IMG/VR virus record: IMGVR_UViG_3300028008_001749
Span: 1-33,160 of that record
Origin: a virus
DNA length: 33,160 nucleotides
Strand: one strand, 5' to 3'
Part shown: piece by piece, positions 8,110 through 28,926 of the stretch
How positions within the stretch are numbered: position 1 is the stretch's first letter
Layout of the letters: every line of letters starts with the position of its first letter
Notes under the pieces: generated by a model
The model's input: the letters and a program-made list of their open reading frames with translations, nothing else
The model's database searches: none
Told to the model about the DNA's origin: nothing
Position numbers and translations under genes: made by a program

Positions 8110-8273
8110 ACTGTTTCTCCTTTGTTTATCACCTCTTGAATGTGGTGATGTGGATATGCCTTCGGGCGTACCTCTTTGATTTTTTCTAAATATTTCTGTG
8201 CTTCTGCTTCAGTATGGAAACGTGCAACAGAAACTTCGTCGTGTATTCTTGGTGTATAAATTATATCGTACAT
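8106..8273 (-). CDS. Hypothetical 55-aa protein
   Basis: The frame starts MYDIIYTPRIHDEVSVARF, contains the helix HTEAEAQKYLEKIKEV (20-35) and then YPHHHIQEVIN with three consecutive histidines (42-44). The layout (beta strand, strand, helix, strand) resembles a small ferredoxin-like or DUF-type domain, but I recognise no family. Position directly after the iron permease gene and the HHH run make a metal-related role conceivable, without proof. Its stop overlaps the next ATG. Confidence 0.65.
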   Translation of the reverse strand: MYDIIYTPRIHDEVSVARFHTEAEAQKYLEKIKEVRPKAYPHHHIQEVINKGETV

Positions 8274-8287
8274 ATTTTTTCCTTATA

Positions 8288-8860
8288 CTAGTGTACTACG
8301 TGTATATGTGTAATTGAATAATAGTGCATTATTGCCTCATATCCAAACCATAATGCAAATACTAAAAATGCATAACGTGTAATTTTAAATAACACATTAG
8401 CTGGTACTTTGTGTTTAATTAGTGGGAACGTTCCTGCAATTAATACAACTGCAATTGATGCGGAGAACCAACCGTTCCATGTATTATTAATTGGCATAAG
8501 CATGAAAATAAATATTTCAGAACTTTCTCTAGCAAAAATAATAAACATTGTAATAAGTCCTGCCCAGCTCGTTGCACCAGCTGACCCTACCTTTTCAATA
8601 CTATTAACAATTTGTTGACCTATAGCACTTGCACTAAAAAATAGATAAAGCATTAATGCTGATAAAGTACCATACATAAGTCCCTCATATGGTGCTAACA
8701 AGTTTGCCATTTGCCAACCTATTACGACTCCAGCAATAATACCTAAAAAGGCAGATGTAATCATACTCCAATTTAACTTAATAAATGTCATAATCATTAA
8801 TGTTATAAACATTATTTCTAAGGCTTCTCTGCCTACTATAAAAAATGGTGCTCCTAGCAT
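8288..8860 (-). CDS. FTR1/EfeU-like iron permease
   Basis: 190-aa polytopic membrane protein with about five or six hydrophobic segments. Two R-E-x-x-E iron motifs characteristic of the FTR1/EfeU family lie inside helices: REALE (11-15) in FFIVGREALEIMFITLM and RESSE (111-115) in MFIIFARESSEIFIFML. This duplicated helix-with-REXXE layout is the family hallmark. It is shorter than E. coli EfeU (about 276 aa), so some helices are reduced. The C-terminus ends in a His-rich THIHVVH. I chose ATG 8860 because AAGGAG precedes it; the longer frame would run into the ferredoxin gene. Substrate Fe is inferred from the motifs; neighbours (ferredoxin, Nfu, SufT-like) fit. Confidence 0.8.
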   Translation of the reverse strand: MLGAPFFIVGREALEIMFITLMIMTFIKLNWSMITSAFLGIIAGVVIGWQMANLLAPYEGLMYGTLSALMLYLFFSASAIGQQIVNSIEKVGSAGATSWAGLITMFIIFARESSEIFIFMLMPINNTWNGWFSASIAVVLIAGTFPLIKHKVPANVLFKITRYAFLVFALWFGYEAIMHYYSITHIHVVH

Positions 8861-8861
8861 A

Positions 8862-9206
8862 TTAGTCTCCTTCGCCCGGCTTTTCTGAAAGTAATTCACG
8901 TTTGTTTGGTTTGCCAGCCCACTCTTTTGCATCTGGTGGTGGGTCTTTCATTGTAGTTATGTTTGGCCATTTTGCAGAATAATCGGTATTTACTTTCATC
9001 CAATATTCTAGCTCTGAACCTTCAATGGCTCCGTCAGCAACAATTGCATCTACTGGACATTCTGGCTCGCATACACCACAATCAATACATTCGTCTGGAT
9101 TTATTACTAGAAAGTTTTCACCTTCATAGAAACAATCAACAGGACAAACTTCTACACAATCTGTATGTTTACATTTAATACAATCTTCTGTTACTAAATA
9201 TGTCAC
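8862..9206 (-). CDS. fdxA: Seven-iron ferredoxin (FdxA type)
   Basis: Electron carrier with one [3Fe-4S] and one [4Fe-4S] cluster. 114 aa, matching FdxA/Azotobacter FdI length. Cysteines at 9, 17 and 50 fit the 3Fe cluster and 21, 40, 43 and 46 the 4Fe cluster; the extra cysteines 12 and 25 of the family are also kept. Diagnostic strings: [17 protein letters not shown] and [16 protein letters not shown]. The C-terminal [18 protein letters not shown] is also standard. Translation starts at a GTG (9204-9206) since the family start M-T-Y-x-V-T is reached exactly there; AGGAG lies about 10 bases upstream. Likely redox partner for Fe-S or oxygenase enzymes of the phage or host (inference). Confidence 0.95.
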
Positions 9207-9211
9207 TTATA

Positions 9212-9508
9212 TTATACTCCTAAAATTAGTCTTGTATCTTCACTCATTTTATCCGGTCCAAAAGGTGGATCGAATGTTATTTTGACATCGCATGTTTCAA
9301 CGTTGTCTACTTTCGTTACTGCTTCATGAACTTCCGCTATGATCTCGTCTGCGGCTGGACAAAATGCACTAGTTAATGTCATAACAATATCAACGTGTGC
9401 CTTATCAATATTTATTTCGTAAATTAAACCCAAATCATATACGTTTATACTGATTTCTGGGTCATATACAATTCTTAAATTTTCAATAATTTTTTCTTTA
9501 TCAATCAT
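9212..9508 (-). CDS. MIP18/DUF59 (SufT-like) Fe-S maturation protein
   Basis: 98 aa with the full DUF59 core: VYDPEISINVYDLGLIYEI (14-32), VMTLTSAFCPAADEII (42-57) with the conserved Cys50, and KITFDPPFGPDKMSEDTRLILG (76-97, family ending pattern). Bacterial SufT/PaaD-like members and eukaryotic CIA2 help load Fe-S clusters onto enzymes. The start at ATG 9508 was preferred to the longer frame because it overlaps the SGNH stop (ATGA) and the family domain begins right after it. It is 5 bases from the ferredoxin start. Stands with Nfu, A-type carrier, ferredoxin and iron permease. Confidence 0.9.
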   Translation of the reverse strand: MIDKEKIIENLRIVYDPEISINVYDLGLIYEINIDKAHVDIVMTLTSAFCPAADEIIAEVHEAVTKVDNVETCDVKITFDPPFGPDKMSEDTRLILGV

Positions 9509-10473
9509 AATACTTTCATAAGTTGTTTTTTTAATCTTTCGGCCCATAATATGTGCCCTGCTTCGTTAAGGTGATTACAATTACATTGCATTGCCATAGC
9601 TTTTGGACCATCTGTTGTAGTGAAATTTCCTTGTGAATCCACCCCGTCTAAAGTATAAAGATGATGTCGCATAGTAGCATTTTCATCTACTACATAATCA
9701 AACAAGTTACTAGTTTCACCTAGCATTAGTTTTCCTATTGTATACCAATCTGTTCTTGCATCAACAGATTCCCACATAAATTTTACGCCTGCATTAACAG
9801 CTATATTTTTAATAGACTCTATCTTTACTAAGTCTTTTAAACAAGCGGCTGGACCTAATCCATCAAGTATGTGTACTTCTTTGTAAGTCTGCAATACTTT
9901 TTTAGCATACAACTTTTCTTGTTCTGTTAATTTATAATGCAACGGATTCCAAAACTTTTCTGTTACATCTTGTCTCCAATTTTGCATACTAGCAGATTGA
10001 TATAGTGCATTACATATATCATTATCGCCCCAACATTCAACAAGACCTCTACCCCAATATTCACTTTCTTGTAAGTAAGAGTTTAATGGAGCTCTGCCAT
10101 ATTCATTATTACCACCTATTTTTGGATCAGTAAAAACGTAAGGCCTTTCTGCAACAGAATTATAAGGCACTGCACTTTGTCCACTAACAAGTCTAGCTTC
10201 TAACATCATTATTTTAAAATTTGGATTTTGAAACAACCCTTTAGTAGCTAATTCATTTGTTGCTTGTACTAGTTCGTCATTGTTACTGCCTGGTAAGCCT
10301 ATAACAATACATTCTAATCCAAGTTGTTCTGCAACTTGCTGGTGAGCAGTACGCCCACTAATTTTGCCGTCTGTGTAATCTCCACAACAACCAAATGTGT
10401 GGCTAGTACCCAATGCCAACATAAACGGCTTATCGGGTACTACCAAAGGTGTCTCTACATGCTTGGGGATCAT
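9505..10473 (-). CDS. SGNH/GDSL-like hydrolase
   Basis: 322 aa. Block I: FMLALGTSHTFGCCGD (17-32) with nucleophile-like Ser24; the Gly/Asn block: IGLPGSNNDELV (58-69); block V: NCNHLNEAGHILWAERL (298-314) with catalytic-type His301. The residue three before the His, usually Asp, is Asn here, so the triad may be atypical. The order and spacing fit the SGNH superfamily, which includes carbohydrate O-acetylesterases and lipases; the substrate cannot be read. No signal peptide is evident, so it acts in the cytoplasm or virion. The ATG overlaps the queD stop (ATGA). A second SGNH-type protein lies at 18294-19004. Confidence 0.7.
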   Translation of the reverse strand: MIPKHVETPLVVPDKPFMLALGTSHTFGCCGDYTDGKISGRTAHQQVAEQLGLECIVIGLPGSNNDELVQATNELATKGLFQNPNFKIMMLEARLVSGQSAVPYNSVAERPYVFTDPKIGGNNEYGRAPLNSYLQESEYWGRGLVECWGDNDICNALYQSASMQNWRQDVTEKFWNPLHYKLTEQEKLYAKKVLQTYKEVHILDGLGPAACLKDLVKIESIKNIAVNAGVKFMWESVDARTDWYTIGKLMLGETSNLFDYVVDENATMRHHLYTLDGVDSQGNFTTTDGPKAMAMQCNCNHLNEAGHILWAERLKKQLMKVL

Positions 10474-10949
10474 TGAGGTGCTCTAGGGTGTGTAACAACT
10501 GCGTTAGGTGTATATATTGCACTGTTTGCACCGTGCTCACTACATTCTGCTGATTCACACCAGCAACGATTGTCACTCATTTCACGTACAAGTTTGTCTG
10601 CAAATGCCCATGCATGTTCTGCAAACTTCTCTGCACCAACTCCATCAAACAATCTAATTTCTGCTAAGTTTAAAGCATCTAGTTCTTTAAACTTTTCTAA
10701 ATATGGATCGTTTTTATCTAAAGCAAGTTTATGATCAAAGTGATCTTCAAGCCAAGCCTTTAAAGGTTTTAATCCTCCAAAGTCAACTGCCCAGTTCTTA
10801 TTGTCTAGTTCATTGCATCCAAATGTAAATTTAAATGCTAATGAATACCCGTGTATCAAACTACAATGCGAATGATCCGCATGTGGTTGACGAAATACTG
10901 CACTTAGTCCAATATTATGTCCGTATGTTTTTGTGCTTAAATAAGCCAT
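10470..10949 (-). CDS. QueD/6-pyruvoyl-tetrahydropterin synthase-like protein
   Basis: 159 aa T-fold protein. Matches: SAVFRQPHADHSHCSLIHGY (16-35) with catalytic-type Cys29 and zinc-type His33, VDFGGLKPLKAWLEDHFDHKLAL (55-77) which is the family's D-F-x-x-L-K...DH-x-x-LN segment. The usual zinc motif H-G-H is H-G-Y here (Tyr35), so one canonical zinc ligand is missing; His23, 26 or 28 might substitute. A Cys-containing insertion RCWCESAECSEHG (128-140) is unusual. QueD makes 6-carboxytetrahydropterin for 7-deazaguanine; no QueC, QueE, QueF or DpdA is visible in the window. First gene of the operon; GGAG precedes the ATG. Confidence 0.75.
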   Translation of the reverse strand: MAYLSTKTYGHNIGLSAVFRQPHADHSHCSLIHGYSLAFKFTFGCNELDNKNWAVDFGGLKPLKAWLEDHFDHKLALDKNDPYLEKFKELDALNLAEIRLFDGVGAEKFAEHAWAFADKLVREMSDNRCWCESAECSEHGANSAIYTPNAVVTHPRAPQ

Positions 10950-14235: not shown

Positions 14236-14508
14236 TTAGATAGTTTCTTCTGACACAACTGTAGAAGTATATTCTCTAGACTCAATTTCCTCTGCGAACG
14301 CTTCTCTGTGAGCAGTAGCGTTAGCTTCGTCAATATAAGTTAAAACAATACGTACACCGTTGCCAGCTTCATTTACATCCATAGTTCCAGCAGTAATATA
14401 CTGATCATTATACAAACCACATCTACCATGTTCTGCAATCCATTCTTCAATGTTTGCATATGTATTAGAGTTTGTAGTTACTAAATCTGCGGTTTTTCTA
14501 AAAGCCAT
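14236..14508 (-). CDS. Hypothetical 90-aa protein
   Basis: Unrecognised. Starts MAFRKTADLVTTNSNTYANI; middle GVRIVLTYIDEANATAHREA has a strand followed by helix, ending ESREYTSTVVSEETI. The ATG at 14508 was chosen since AGGAG lies about 8 bases upstream; a GTG five codons earlier is less likely. First gene of the minus transcript that runs into the desaturase and oxygenases, behind the divergent promoter region 14545-14608. Confidence 0.7.
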   Translation of the reverse strand: MAFRKTADLVTTNSNTYANIEEWIAEHGRCGLYNDQYITAGTMDVNEAGNGVRIVLTYIDEANATAHREAFAEEIESREYTSTVVSEETI

Positions 14509-14544
14509 TTGTTTTCTCCTCACATCTTCTGATGTATTTCTATT

Positions 14545-14580: not shown

Positions 14581-14608
14581 TTGACAGATAAATAAGTATG
14601 TATATAAT
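14581..14608 (+). promoter_or_regulatory. Consensus sigma70 promoter of the plus-strand block
   Basis: TTGACA (14581-14586), 16-bp spacer, TATAAT (14603-14608). Both boxes are perfect consensus. The -10 ends 6 bases before the ATG at 14615, so transcripts should start at or next to the start codon. The spacer also contains GATAAATA, similar to T4-type late boxes. Confidence 0.9.
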
Positions 14609-14614
14609 AGTAAC

Positions 14615-15127
14615 ATGCTAGTAAAACAAGATCCAGGTAAAAGAGACATAGAATTCTTCGGTTACATATGCGAAGATATGGGCTATATGAACAATGCCAA
14701 TTTAGATGCAATGAAATACGACTGGTGTAAGAAGCACAAAGGCGAATGGTGGGCTGCTTATCACAATGACGTAATTGTATCAATGGCGGGTTGTCATAAG
14801 TTTCACGATGGTCATCGTATGTTGTTCAGAGGTGTACAAACAATGCCTGCTCAAACTGGATTAAGTAAAAATCATATGACTAGTATTCCATGGAAATGGA
14901 TATTACCCGAGCAAATAAAATGGGCTCAAAGTTCAGAAGAACAGCCTGCATACATTACAACAAACGTTGAAAATGATGCAAGTGGAAAAATGAATAGAAC
15001 TGACAGATTATTTCATCTGTTAGCTAAACAAGGAATAGTAAGTTTTTATACTGAAGAAGAAATATACGGAACAAAACAATCAGTATGGAAATTAAACTTA
15101 GAAAAATATTATGAAACATTGGTTTGA
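14615..15127 (+). CDS. Acyltransferase-like (GNAT-type) protein, first gene of plus-strand block
   Basis: 170 aa. Order of elements: helix NLDAMKYDWCKKHKGE, strands WWAAYHNDVIVSMAGCHKF and HRMLFRGVQTMP, a helix WILPEQIKWAQ, strand PAYITTNVE, helix RTDRLFHLLAKQG and C-terminal strand VWKLNLEKYY. The strand pair 'WAAYHNDVIVSMAGC' is the typical GNAT pattern of cofactor-proximal strands, and the whole looks like a diverged N-acyltransferase; no unambiguous CoA loop is seen. It is the lead gene of five tightly overlapping plus-strand genes, including an AMP-dependent ligase fragment that could supply an activated acyl group (inference). The ATG directly follows the -10 box. Confidence 0.5.
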   Translation: MLVKQDPGKRDIEFFGYICEDMGYMNNANLDAMKYDWCKKHKGEWWAAYHNDVIVSMAGCHKFHDGHRMLFRGVQTMPAQTGLSKNHMTSIPWKWILPEQIKWAQSSEEQPAYITTNVENDASGKMNRTDRLFHLLAKQGIVSFYTEEEIYGTKQSVWKLNLEKYYETLV

Positions 15128-15401
15128 TTGGAAACATTTAAGAGTAGCAGAATACTTAAACGGAACAAAGCGTGATAATGCTATTGTGCTTTATTTTAAG
15201 CACATGTACATAGGCTTTAGAGAAGCAGGTAAACAATTGTTTATGTGTATCGCTAGTATTATACATGCAATATTTCCACCGCTATTTAATTTTAAATTAC
15301 TAGAAATGGTAATTAATCAAGCAATAGGCTTACACAAGTTTTTGCCTCAGCATCCAGACTGGAAGAAATTAAAAGATGAACTTAATAAAAATAATAAATG
15401 A
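15111..15401 (+). CDS. DUF6356-like small membrane-associated protein
   Basis: 96 aa, overlapping the previous gene by 17 bases. The pattern YFKHMYIGFREAGKQLFMC followed by IASIIHAIFPPLFNF resembles DUF6356 proteins, which have a Y-x-x-H-M...helix and A-x-I/V-HA-x-FP-x-LF. A hydrophobic amphipathic segment (37-60) suggests membrane association. The end (HPDWKKLKDELNKNNK) is soluble and basic. The function of this family is unknown to me; its members are often near lipid or polysaccharide genes. Placement directly before the AMP-dependent ligase fragment is consistent with a role in the same pathway. Confidence 0.55.
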   Translation: MKHWFDWKHLRVAEYLNGTKRDNAIVLYFKHMYIGFREAGKQLFMCIASIIHAIFPPLFNFKLLEMVINQAIGLHKFLPQHPDWKKLKDELNKNNK

Positions 15402-16053
15402 TGGCACAACAATTAATACCAGCGGAACTACTGGTCCAAGTAAACCAATTTGGCAAAGTGCTGAAAAGATATACTTTGCAAATAGAGCCGCAGTAGAATG
15501 TCAGAAGTTAAATAAGTTTAGTAAAGTATATACAGTATGTACATTAGATCATGCAGGTGGATTGTTTGCACAAACACTACCAGCTATAGCAGTTGAAGCA
15601 GAAGTATGTATAGAACAGTTTAATGCATTTAGATGGGTTAAAAAAATTATGGAGTATACACATTCGCACTTAACACCTAACATGGCTAGAGCTGTTATGG
15701 CTACTAAAACATTTAGTAAACTTGACTTAACTGGTATAACAATTATGTGTGGAAGTGATAGAGTACATAGTAGTATTATTAAAGCATTTATAGAGCAAGG
15801 TGCTACGTTTATTGCTAATTGGGGCATGAGTGAAGTAGGACCAGTTGCTATTAATAAAACATTTAACAAAGGTGATATTGTAGATCATACAGAAAGTATT
15901 ATGGGAGATAAAACTTATTGTGAAACTAAAATTGTAGATGGAGAGTTATATGTCAAAGGATATATTTGTGTATATGATGATTGGTTTGCAACAGGCGACT
16001 TAGTAGAATACAAGGATGATATTTACTGGTACCTAGGGAGAAAAAATGCGTAA
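15376..16053 (+). CDS. Mini AMP-dependent synthetase/ligase (ANL family), truncated
   Basis: 225 aa carrying the adenylation core in order: A3 loop TSGTTGPSKP (15-24), A4-like LDHAGGLF (58-64), MCGSDRV (124-130), A5 NWGMSEVGP (148-156), A7 ATGDLVEY (205-212) and the A8 hinge YLGRKNA (219-225), where the protein ends. Missing: the N-terminal ~150 residues of normal ligases, and the C-terminal lid with the A10 catalytic lysine. The stop lies within the hinge, not mid-domain, and no frameshifted remnant follows, so it looks like an evolved minimal enzyme. It might only bind AMP or an acyl-adenylate, or use a lid supplied in trans. Overlaps its neighbours by 26 and 8 bases. Confidence 0.85.
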   Translation: MNLIKIINDGTTINTSGTTGPSKPIWQSAEKIYFANRAAVECQKLNKFSKVYTVCTLDHAGGLFAQTLPAIAVEAEVCIEQFNAFRWVKKIMEYTHSHLTPNMARAVMATKTFSKLDLTGITIMCGSDRVHSSIIKAFIEQGATFIANWGMSEVGPVAINKTFNKGDIVDHTESIMGDKTYCETKIVDGELYVKGYICVYDDWFATGDLVEYKDDIYWYLGRKNA

Positions 16054-16798
16054 GTTAGAAAACAAACATGTATTTGTTAGTTTTGAACCAGGAGCAAGTG
16101 GACATAGACTAGCAAGAGTATTAGCTACTATGCCATGTATGCACTGGTATAGTTGTGAAGAAAATGGAATTAATCCATGGAATGTAGGCAAGGTAAATGA
16201 TTACAGTGGACAACGTAAGACAAGTAGATATCATTTTGATCGTATAACACCAAAAGGTAAATTACCACCAACTCACGATTATGTAGAAAAGTATCTACCA
16301 AATGAAAAACAATATTACAAATTATTTGATAAGTTATTTAAAGAAAATGGTGGAGAAGATATCATTAATGATGGCAAACGTGTATTGTATTGCACACATA
16401 GTATGCCTAATAAAATATTAGAATACTTTCCTAATAGTATTATTTTTAATATTATACATGATCCAAAAATTATAACTGATCGTTACATGCAAACTACTGC
16501 AAAGTTTCCTGGTTATGTAAAACACTACGGTGTTGTACCAGAAGATAATGAATACTTAGCATTTTTAAAAATATTACATGGTAGAAAAGATGATCTAACT
16601 GTAGCAGACATCTGGGCATTTGAACGTAAGAAGAAATTCTATACTGATGCATTAGAGGATAAACTTAAAAAAGAGATATATGCTAAAATGTTTTCAAATA
16701 GTATTTTTAGGAAAGCAATAGATGATCCTAGAGTGTGTAACACTACAACAAAATTTGATTATAAAGAAATAAAAAGGTATTTAGATGGTAGACTTTAG
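16046..16798 (+). CDS. P-loop sulfotransferase-like protein (1)
   Basis: 250 aa. N-terminal strand and phosphate loop KHVFVSFEPGASGHRLARVL (7-26), the position and pattern of the 5'-PSB loop that binds PAPS phosphate in sulfotransferases. A second motif, SIIFNIIHDPKIITDRYM, resembles the 3'-phosphate-binding strand (V-x-x-x-R-D-P). The central part (RVLYCTHSMPNKILEYFPNS) matches the usual strand-helix leading to it. The mapping is by pattern, not by strong identity, so a different P-loop transferase is possible. Starts 8 bases before the ligase stop. Confidence 0.5.
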   Translation: MRKLENKHVFVSFEPGASGHRLARVLATMPCMHWYSCEENGINPWNVGKVNDYSGQRKTSRYHFDRITPKGKLPPTHDYVEKYLPNEKQYYKLFDKLFKENGGEDIINDGKRVLYCTHSMPNKILEYFPNSIIFNIIHDPKIITDRYMQTTAKFPGYVKHYGVVPEDNEYLAFLKILHGRKDDLTVADIWAFERKKKFYTDALEDKLKKEIYAKMFSNSIFRKAIDDPRVCNTTTKFDYKEIKRYLDGRL

Positions 16799-17489
16799 TA
16801 ACGTAATATTCATAACTGGTGCACCTGGTAGTAAGTGGAGTGCAGTTAGTTGGGTGTTAAGTGAATCACCAGCACTTAATGTAAGCATTACAGATAGAAC
16901 AGAAGAAAGACTAATGGTGCATGATGCCATTTATGGTGGAGTAAGACACACAGGTGTTTACTTTGGTCCAGGAAATGAACTTGGAAAACAATTTCATAAA
17001 ATTGATACACTTACAAGAGAAGAAGTCTTTGAAGAAATTAAACAAGCATGGGCAGAATGGGATGAAGAAAAAACTTACATTGTACGTTGCCATCAGTTCA
17101 TTTATAATTGGGATTGGATGATTGAAAACTTTCCAGAAGCAAAGTTTGTTACTGTGTCAAGACCTCCTGAGATGTGTGTACAAGGTTGGACTAGTGTAGG
17201 TGGTATTGAAACTCCATATCCACATTATAAAGAGTTTTATAAAACACAAGAAAATGCAATAGAACAAATTAAACTAGAATCAAAATTAGCACATAAAGCA
17301 TTTCATGATCATCATATGGATGTACATGTTGCAAGCCCAGGCCATTTCTTTAAAGAATTTTTACTAGATCCAGAACCAGAAACTGGGTTGGATAGATATA
17401 TTAAACATTTAGAAGGATATAATTGGGGTGCTAAAGATCCGCTTATGCAGTTAAAACATGACGTGTTGATCGGCTACCTAAATTTCTAA
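16785..17489 (+). CDS. P-loop sulfotransferase-like protein (2)
   Basis: 234 aa. 5'-PSB-type loop FITGAPGSKWSAVSWVL (9-25), then TYIVRCHQFIYNWDWMIENF and AKFVTVSRPPEMCVQGW, in which VTVSRPPEM fits the 3'-PSB strand of sulfotransferases (V-x-x-x-R-D-P). Helix-rich C-terminus. It resembles the preceding gene in layout, so the two may be paralogues or act as a pair. Overlaps the previous gene by 14 bases. Its last 47 bases overlap the convergent gene 17443-18303. Sulfation needs PAPS from the host; no PAPS synthesis genes are in the window. Confidence 0.6.
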   Translation: MVDFSNVIFITGAPGSKWSAVSWVLSESPALNVSITDRTEERLMVHDAIYGGVRHTGVYFGPGNELGKQFHKIDTLTREEVFEEIKQAWAEWDEEKTYIVRCHQFIYNWDWMIENFPEAKFVTVSRPPEMCVQGWTSVGGIETPYPHYKEFYKTQENAIEQIKLESKLAHKAFHDHHMDVHVASPGHFFKEFLLDPEPETGLDRYIKHLEGYNWGAKDPLMQLKHDVLIGYLNF

Positions 17490-18303
17490 TAATATCAACA
17501 ACTTTATCTTTTTCAAAGTTAAACTGACATGATCCAATTTGTATATGATCATTTCTTAAATCTTCCCAAGCATCAATAACATAACTTCTCCAAGAAGACT
17601 TATGGTCTAGGAAATCATCACCTTCACTAAATCTCATAAACTTCCAGTCAGTATCTGTAGTAATATGTTTCCATTGCCATTCGTGATCATAATGATGTGT
17701 TCTTACACAATCATTTTCATCTTTTGGAAATGCTGAATATGTTTCTATTCCTAATTTAGTTGGACGTCCCGAAAAGCCAACGCCAGCCATTATTTGAAAC
17801 TCTTTATATGCTTCATACTTGTTCGATATTTTAAAACAATCACCTGGTGGAATAAATGCAGGCTCATTAAAATGAGTGTATATACATTTAATACTTTCAA
17901 ATCCACATAACCATAATGCAATAAGTCTTCCACTACCCGGATGTACTCTATATCTATTAAACCAAGGCTCATGTAAAATTTGTGGATAAAACTTTAATTC
18001 TTCATATTGTATACATTCAGTAAGATAAAATATTTTACTAACATCTTCCATAACATTTCTATCTTGCATTCCATTATTTGTTACTTCGGAATCATGGAAT
18101 TCTAATATTTGTTCAAATGGTAGACTTCTAAACTGTTCTAACATCCTAACAATTTCATACATAGGACTATGTAGTATGTCCCAATTGACGTAACTAGACG
18201 CAAGATAACCGCCCTTACGTTCGTGATCGTTTAGCCAATGCTGTAACATATAGTCTTGTGCAAGATCTTTTAAACCTGGGTAAAGTCTTGGGTCTACTGA
18301 CAT
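17443..18303 (-). CDS. Unknown 286-aa protein
   Basis: No family recognised. Helical N-terminus (KDLAQDYMLQHWLNDHERKG), then EPWFNRYRVHPGSGRLIALW, a Gly/Arg loop after a conserved-looking basic stretch, CGFESIKCIYTHF, and a C-terminal half rich in Trp, His and Asp (HHYDHEWQWKHITTDTDWKF). No membrane segment or signal peptide. It overlaps the convergent sulfotransferase-like gene by 47 bases and the SGNH-type gene by 10. It may act on the same molecule as its neighbours; that is only positional inference. Confidence 0.7.
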   Translation of the reverse strand: MSVDPRLYPGLKDLAQDYMLQHWLNDHERKGGYLASSYVNWDILHSPMYEIVRMLEQFRSLPFEQILEFHDSEVTNNGMQDRNVMEDVSKIFYLTECIQYEELKFYPQILHEPWFNRYRVHPGSGRLIALWLCGFESIKCIYTHFNEPAFIPPGDCFKISNKYEAYKEFQIMAGVGFSGRPTKLGIETYSAFPKDENDCVRTHHYDHEWQWKHITTDTDWKFMRFSEGDDFLDHKSSWRSYVIDAWEDLRNDHIQIGSCQFNFEKDKVVDIIRNLGSRSTRHVLTA

Positions 18304-28054: not shown

Positions 28055-28083
28055 ATAATACACTCTTATGACGAGGTTGTCAA
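28055..28083 (-). promoter_or_regulatory. Sigma70-type promoter for dsbA/methyltransferase/radical SAM/polymerase
   Basis: TTGACA (28078-28083), 17-bp spacer, TATTAT (28055-28060) on the minus strand, with a 30-base leader and AGGAG before dsbA. The -35 lies in the end of the upstream gene. All genes down to gp43 follow without a clear terminator. Confidence 0.85.
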
Positions 28084-28926
28084 TGGATATCTAAGTGTAT
28101 TTGAGGTTCTTTCAAGTACTACACTAATATCAGAAGCATGATGTCTTACTGCATCTAATCCTGCTAGTGCTAGCAGTTTTTTACTTTGTAATGTAGGCAT
28201 TTGATGTTGGTTTTGTTGGAATACATAGCTTATTGCTTTTAGTTTGTTATTAACATCATTTACTTTAATATTCCATTCTTTGTAGCTATTTCTTTGTAAG
28301 TATTCCTTAACCCATTGTTTTAAATTTTTGTTATGAAATATTTTTAATGCATTAAATGTATCTGCAGGATCTCCTAACCAGTCATGCATTTCTAATACTA
28401 TATCTGCATGTTCAGCCCACATTTCGTCTTGATTAATATATTGATTATAAAGATACTTCCAAGTATTATCAATGCTAGTAAATGCATTCATTTCATCACT
28501 GTATTCACGTTTTAAAAATAAGTCTAAATACAAGTAACTGTTAGTACCCATTGTTGTTGTTATTACAGTTATAGGAAGATTATGTTCTTCTTTATATTCC
28601 ATAATTTCTTTTGTATTTTTTGCATGTGTAAACAATGCTACACTTTTTCCTGTTCCTAGTGATTCCCATACTTTACATAATGTATGTAACGAGGTTACAT
28701 CCATTTGTTCATCGTTTCTAATATTGGGAGTATATGTTTCTACATATGTATCAGGAATATTCCACCAGTCATTTATTGTTAATGCATCATTAAAGTTTGT
28801 ACCTTTTTCGGTATGGTACACATTATTATGAACTACATTATAACAGGTTGGGCTTTGATTGATTATGTAAGTTAACGCACTCGCACAAATTGCACTACGA
28901 GTACAAACAAGATATATTTGATTCAT
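28066..28926 (-). CDS. Possible P-loop sulfotransferase-like protein (3)
   Basis: 286 aa. The start QIYLVCTRSAICASALTYII (3-22) has the strand, loop with R-S-x-x-S-A and helix expected for the PAPS-binding loop, followed by NQSP as in the plus-strand protein (2). Other parts: GTGKSVALFTHAKNTKEIME and ITVITTTMGTNSYLYLDLFL. The match is weaker than for 16785-17489. The ATG overlaps the stop of the nitroreductase-like gene (ATGA). The C-terminal half is helical (AISYVFQQNQHQ). Confidence 0.4.
   Translation of the reverse strand: MNQIYLVCTRSAICASALTYIINQSPTCYNVVHNNVYHTEKGTNFNDALTINDWWNIPDTYVETYTPNIRNDEQMDVTSLHTLCKVWESLGTGKSVALFTHAKNTKEIMEYKEEHNLPITVITTTMGTNSYLYLDLFLKREYSDEMNAFTSIDNTWKYLYNQYINQDEMWAEHADIVLEMHDWLGDPADTFNALKIFHNKNLKQWVKEYLQRNSYKEWNIKVNDVNNKLKAISYVFQQNQHQMPTLQSKKLLALAGLDAVRHHASDISVVLERTSNTLRYPLTTSS

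Follow-up and report, generated by a model that had tools for sequence, protein, structure and literature searches.

The locus and its promoter

The window, a virus record of 33,160 bases, is coded on the minus strand except for an island of five plus-strand genes at positions 14615-17489. The features of this island are the following:

14581..14608, plus strand: promoter TTGACA-N16-TATAAT with perfect hexamers, 6 bases 5' of the g1 ATG
14615..15127, plus strand: g1, GNAT-fold protein of 170 aa, by linkage the partner of the mini-ligase g3
15111..15401, plus strand: g2, small DUF6356 (PF19883) protein with one strongly hydrophobic segment
15376..16053, plus strand: g3, single-domain (lidless) ANL adenylate-forming enzyme of 225 aa, with motifs A3 to A8 only
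16046..16798, plus strand: g4, P-loop-like protein of 250 aa, distantly sulfotransferase-like, a frequent member of the cassette
16785..17489, plus strand: g5, sulfotransferase-like protein of 234 aa, an optional member

Successive reading frames from g1 to g5 overlap by 17, 26, 8 and 14 bases, and both strand and GC skew set the block apart from the minus-strand window, which bears out the preliminary description of an isolated run of overlapping genes. A perfect consensus promoter had also been proposed; both hexamers, TTGACA at 14581 and TATAAT at 14603-14608, are indeed perfect and the element is kept in six aligned phage rows, but the spacer is 16 bases long and not 17. One of these rows is locus L032, where g1 has moved to the opposite strand, g5 is absent and the promoter still stands ahead of g2. 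The pairing of the two hexamers is common in G003, a 204-kb relative of the window phage, with 11 TTGACA/TATAAT pairs against 0.8 expected. As only 6 bases separate the -10 box from the g1 ATG, the g1-g5 mRNA is probably close to leaderless, and the host-type promoter suggests early expression of the cassette. Compared with its close relative, the window has a dN/dS of 0.00-0.22 in all five genes, the mark of purifying selection. The reading frames, the distinct strand and skew, the conserved promoter and the selection on the genes together make the block real, far beyond chance.

Distribution of the gene set in phages

The relative G003 (204,772 bases, pieces L014-L024) carries the same five-gene block at 95-100% protein identity. 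It encodes a terminase, a tail sheath and a DnaB-type helicase, and the window encodes a phage DNA polymerase and a clamp loader; judged from these genes, the window phage would be a T4-type myovirus. Distant phages with the same gene order came to light when viral contigs were searched for g2 and for a P-loop pattern.

That the genes should co-occur elsewhere was examined from both sides. A profile of g3 returned 39 loci; in the 36 phage loci that hold g3, the partners are g1 (33/36), g2 (25/36), g4 (26/36) and g5 (17/36). The reverse search, by a g1 profile only, gave 125 relatives, from which a set of 80 loci was retained. At 68 of these 80 a g3 frame is present, with one exception downstream within about 2.2 kb, and it measures 213-256 aa, or 107 aa where a contig end cuts it. 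Grouped at 90% g1 identity, the 80 loci form 43 clusters, 38 of which have a g3-bearing member; the other five have no g3 nearby, and several of the g3-less loci end at a contig edge. Searches by g3 alone and by g1 alone thus meet on one module, and the counts in the two directions define g1 and g3 as its core, g2 and g4 as common and g5 as optional. The block is an auxiliary gene cassette that is widespread among large marine T4-type phages and horizontally mobile.

A single-domain ANL enzyme

The protein g3, earlier called a mini adenylate ligase, matches the AMP-binding profile PF00501 at 3.9e-15 over profile positions 170 to 378 of 384. Its AlphaFold2 model (pLDDT 91, pTM 0.89) has 591 PDB matches at E<=0.001 in Foldseek; those listed are ANL enzymes, and the best is MenE at 7.9e-14. 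Against MenE and other ANL folds the TM-score is about 0.8 by the length of g3 and 0.4 by the length of the target, so that g3 amounts to half an enzyme. The modelled fold and the motifs A3, A5, A7 and A8 that it carries place g3 confidently as an ANL adenylate-forming domain with a predicted activity, though one that lacks the two-domain architecture and the A10 lysine of the superfamily.

The missing parts are the same throughout the family. The protein runs from the P-loop to the A8 hinge only and retains motifs A3, A4, A5, A7 and A8; none of the 24 aligned phage homologues has an N-terminal subdomain or a C-terminal lid with its catalytic lysine, and the complete members of this alignment stop at, or a few residues past, the "GR" of the A8 hinge. 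Across many marine phages the family has roughly 50-74% identity, and the motifs (T/S)SG(T/S)TG..K, HAGG, NWGM(S/T)E, W..TGD and GR are invariant or nearly so down to about 50%. MenE (o-succinylbenzoate-CoA ligase; 3ipl, 6nj0, 5bur) shares with g3 the fold of the central domain, the P-loop, the A5 NWGMSE, the A7 TGD and the A8 GR. It differs from g3, which has 225 aa against roughly double, in possessing the N-terminal ~110-170 residues, the C-terminal lid and the A10 lysine.

ANL enzymes are two-domain machines in which the C-terminal lid is active in both half-reactions. This domain rotates for thioesterification, and the A10 lysine is the key catalytic residue (PMC8388817), which makes the architecture of g3 unusual. 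A lid supplied in trans by the phage was considered and rejected for G003 and six other phage records, in which a search for PF13193 found no lid and control genomes were positive. In two phage records PF13193 lids occur inside full-length ligases, and the sole PF00501 protein of G003 is g3 itself.

The GNAT-fold partner

The canonical acyl-CoA loop of GNATs is R/QxxGxG/A, and acyl-CoA is their usual substrate. The Pfam GNAT match of g1 is weak (0.028). Its AlphaFold2 model (pLDDT 89) supports a GNAT fold, in line with the earlier acyltransferase-like label: all 50 Foldseek matches listed are GNAT-type acyltransferases, the best at 9.7e-6. GNATs bind the pyrophosphate of CoA by this loop, which lies between strand 4 and helix 3; at the same place g1 has a conserved GLxRxHMxS and not the canonical motif. 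The GNAT acetyltransferases SACOL1063 (5jph) and CBU0801 (9mto) resemble g1 in fold and strand order, but identity to them is about 10-14%, the TM-score is only 0.5-0.6, and g1 is without their canonical CoA pyrophosphate loop.

The accessory proteins g2, g4 and g5

The assignment of g2 to DUF6356 holds. The window protein scores 24.4 against PF19883, whose gathering cut-off is 24.4, and three homologues score 29.7-32.9. One strongly hydrophobic segment in the hydropathy profile makes g2 a probable membrane anchor. DUF6356 is a family without known function, and no description of its pairing with a lidless ANL protein was found in the open-licence literature.

Canonical PAPS sites consist of a PKSGTT-like 5' loop and a 3' arginine with a serine eight residues on. 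Of the two proteins that the preliminary description took for sulfotransferases, g5 retains a weak likeness to the family and g4 less: Sulfotransfer_3 (PF13469) matches 8/16 homologues of g5, at best at 2.5e-5, with the window protein itself at 17 bits against a curated cut-off of 27, and sulfotransferase profiles match 2/15 members of the g4 family, at 0.0044 at best. An hhalign comparison of the two families gives a probability of 42%. Both proteins depart from the canonical motifs. The 5' loop of g5 is GAPGS(K/R)WS, and at its 3' motif the arginine is kept in the main orthologues and not in the paralogues, which occur elsewhere in the same phages, and the serine is replaced; g4 has histidine, aspartate or another residue at the arginine position and an arginine where the serine is expected. 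The case for g5 as a sulfotransferase is weak and that for g4 weaker, and since the PAPS motifs of both are altered, sulfation is a guess.

A search of PDB sequences with profiles of g1, g4 and g5 gave no credible match. A role in defence or counter-defence was rejected for want of PADLOC support, where g4 matched JetA only, over 33 residues at 0.017. Elsewhere in the window, at 28066-28926, lies a protein without a Pfam match that starts with CTRSAICASALTYIINQSP, as does its G003 homologue; by eye this start resembles a sulfotransferase-type P-loop.

Neighbouring genes

Three minus-strand genes lie close to the block:

14236..14523, minus strand: 95-aa protein, divergent, with its own promoter-like site at 14573-14545; homologues lie near the block in seven loci
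17443..18303, minus strand: 286-aa protein, convergent neighbour, kept beside the block only in the window's own phage clade
18294..19064, minus strand: 256-aa protein with a segment, GCSYTFG, that by eye is SGNH-like; retained together with the 17443-18303 gene in the same clade

The convergent gene also overlaps g5, by 47 bases. A desaturase gene (3e-11) and TauD genes adjoin the block in the window and are kept in L028; together with a neighbour termed GNAT2, they are kept only in part of the window's clade. They are not beside the block in L029, where a radical SAM-like gene takes their place, nor in L032, which has other genes, nor in the farther neighbourhoods listed. Near the block in farther phages stand genes for radical SAM, nitroreductase, carbamoyltransferase, QueC-like, IMPDH-domain and class IV aminotransferase proteins. 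The proposal that the desaturase and two 2OG oxygenases act in one route with the block was therefore rejected, as these neighbours are not conserved. Their variation between phages points to a module that is plugged into changing sets of tailoring enzymes.

Further genes were seen in single phages or groups. In one phage group a gene for an FAD-dependent flavoprotein of tryptophan-halogenase type lies between g1 and g2 (L065 4759-5832, PF04820 at 4e-58; L077 3110-4192). L065 also has, at 8199-10671, two adjacent reading frames that by eye resemble the tripartite tricarboxylate transporter genes TctA and TctC; the one like TctC has no Pfam match at 0.001. The window carries a QueD/PTPS-like gene at 10470-10949 (PF01242 at 5e-14), which may point to pterin or 7-deazaguanine chemistry in the phage. 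A gene with an IMPDH/GMP-reductase domain stands upstream of the mini-ligase, mostly directly, in L084 (4955-5989), L085, L129, L131 and L135.

Bacterial carriers and exchange

The mini-ligase was found at 50 loci in a bacterial genome collection, about half of them in SAR11 single-cell genomes; the other carriers are OM43 Methylophilaceae, SAR116, Gammaproteobacteria and four genomes in which guaB-guaA-like genes precede the DUF6356 and mini-ligase genes. With the IMPDH/GMP-reductase-domain genes upstream of the phage mini-ligases, these make a purine link possible. Three loci of this collection, L129, L131 and L135, look like phage sequence in MAGs. At 33 loci, in SAR11, OM43 and Gammaproteobacteria, the DUF6356 gene lies directly upstream of g3. 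The SAR11 loci that were read (e.g., L095 5581-8696) consist of a photolyase-related gene on the opposite strand, an SDR, the DUF6356 gene and the mini-ligase, and this fixed synteny suggests an operon in a subset of SAR11.

A g1 profile that worked on positive controls found no g1 in 15 carrier genomes, and g1 was rejected as a part of the bacterial version (0/15). The GNAT is not obligatory, since these bacteria have g2 and g3 without it. The mini-ligase was likewise rejected as a universal SAR11 gene. Among 117 genomes from the order of a SAR11 carrier, a strong g3 match occurs only in the query genome (1/117); the other matches have an E of 3e-8 or weaker, and nearly all of them fall within frames of full-length ANL enzymes (about 450-600 aa). 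Among 399 genomes from the phylum, the short form is again confined to the query genome, and the five other matches lie in frames of 489-618 aa. In the g3 tree the phage/bacterium label changes at least five times on well-supported branches, a count that carries no direction, and the gene has thus crossed the boundary between phages and bacteria repeatedly.

Possible function

Tentatively, the block is best read as a mobile cassette with the GNAT g1 and the lidless ANL protein g3 at its core, in which an acyl-adenylate is made and the acyl group is moved on, directly or via g1. With its A3, A4, A5, A7 and A8 motifs, g3 would bind ATP and a carboxylic acid and form the acyl-adenylate. Since there is no lid for thioesterification, the acyl group would then pass to an amine or hydroxyl acceptor, either directly or via g1, probably at the membrane, where hydropathy places g2; g4 and g5, should they work as transferases, would act on that same product. 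Catalysis by g3 may be slow, altered or absent, as the A10 lysine is missing (PMC8388817). The non-canonical loop of g1, its absence from the bacterial carriers and the five g1 clusters without a nearby g3 also speak against this reading. To name a surface lipid or glycan as the product is guesswork. Somewhat unlikely is a CoA-free pair, in which a lidless ANL family of marine phages and some abundant ocean bacteria hands its acyl-adenylate directly to a GNAT partner that no longer binds CoA, and the phages remodel host or virion molecules.

An acyl-CoA route, in which g3 still makes acyl-CoA, or borrows a lid from one of the host's ligases, and g1 works as a conventional N-acyltransferase that uses the acyl-CoA, is unlikely. 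It would fit the normal substrate of GNATs and the nearest folds of g3, which are CoA ligases such as MenE. Against it stand the lack of the usual CoA loop in g1, the lack of a lid gene in the 204-kb G003 and the absence, in every aligned g3 member, of the C-terminal domain that must rotate for thioesterification (PMC8388817).

The loss of this lid and of the A10 lysine would also suit a catalytically inactive ANL domain that would take up a nucleotide or acyl ligand and control g2, as its membrane partner, or a host enzyme. So would the tight tie of g3 to a small hydrophobic protein in those bacteria that have no g1. The residues of the ATP site, however, vary little or not at all even among family members with about 50% identity, as in enzymes, and such a binding or sensing module is improbable.

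It is very doubtful that the cassette makes or attaches a group on phage DNA bases or tRNA. The PTPS/QueD-like gene at 10470-10949, a QueC-like gene beside the block in L061, the IMPDH-domain gene that immediately precedes g3 in L084 and the guaB-guaA-like genes ahead of the g2-g3 pair in four bacteria point that way, but such neighbours differ from phage to phage, the SAR11 pair sits beside a photolyase-related gene and an SDR, and a membrane partner fits poorly. A full route, in which an acid would be activated and a surface lipid or glycan acylated and sulfated with the help of the desaturase and 2OG oxygenases next to the block, has in its favour the gene content of the window and the adjacent desaturase and TauD genes kept in L028, but is highly improbable given the absence of these genes beside the block in L029, L032 and the farther neighbourhoods listed and the non-canonical PAPS motifs of g4 and g5.

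Relation to known sequences

The cassette is contained in none of the cultured phage records searched. In tblastn against 50,697 phage records, g1-g4 had no match and g5 had distant single-cell virus matches only; divergent g1 and g3 queries against the same records gave nothing useful, with matches of 20-24% in two unannotated faecal contigs. No dedicated family for g1, g3, g4 or g5 was found in Pfam, PHROGs or NCBIfam, and the open-licence literature yielded no account of the cassette, of what DUF6356 does or of any natural ANL protein without a lid. The block would add a widespread auxiliary gene cassette beyond the cultured phage records searched. A family that is lidless and yet conserved and exchanged with bacteria suggests a different use of an activated acid, and the near-constant partners of g3, the GNAT in phages and DUF6356 in bacteria, form testable two-protein systems.

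An uncultured Caudovirales phage protein annotated as "AMP-dependent synthetase/ligase" (A0A6J5L770, 214 aa) resembles g3 as a short viral ANL model with a TM-score of 0.74/0.78, but has 20% identity to it. In a different phage group and context, L033 (3190-5422) and related loci carry two adjacent, longer AMP-ligase-like genes, of 427 and about 320 aa.
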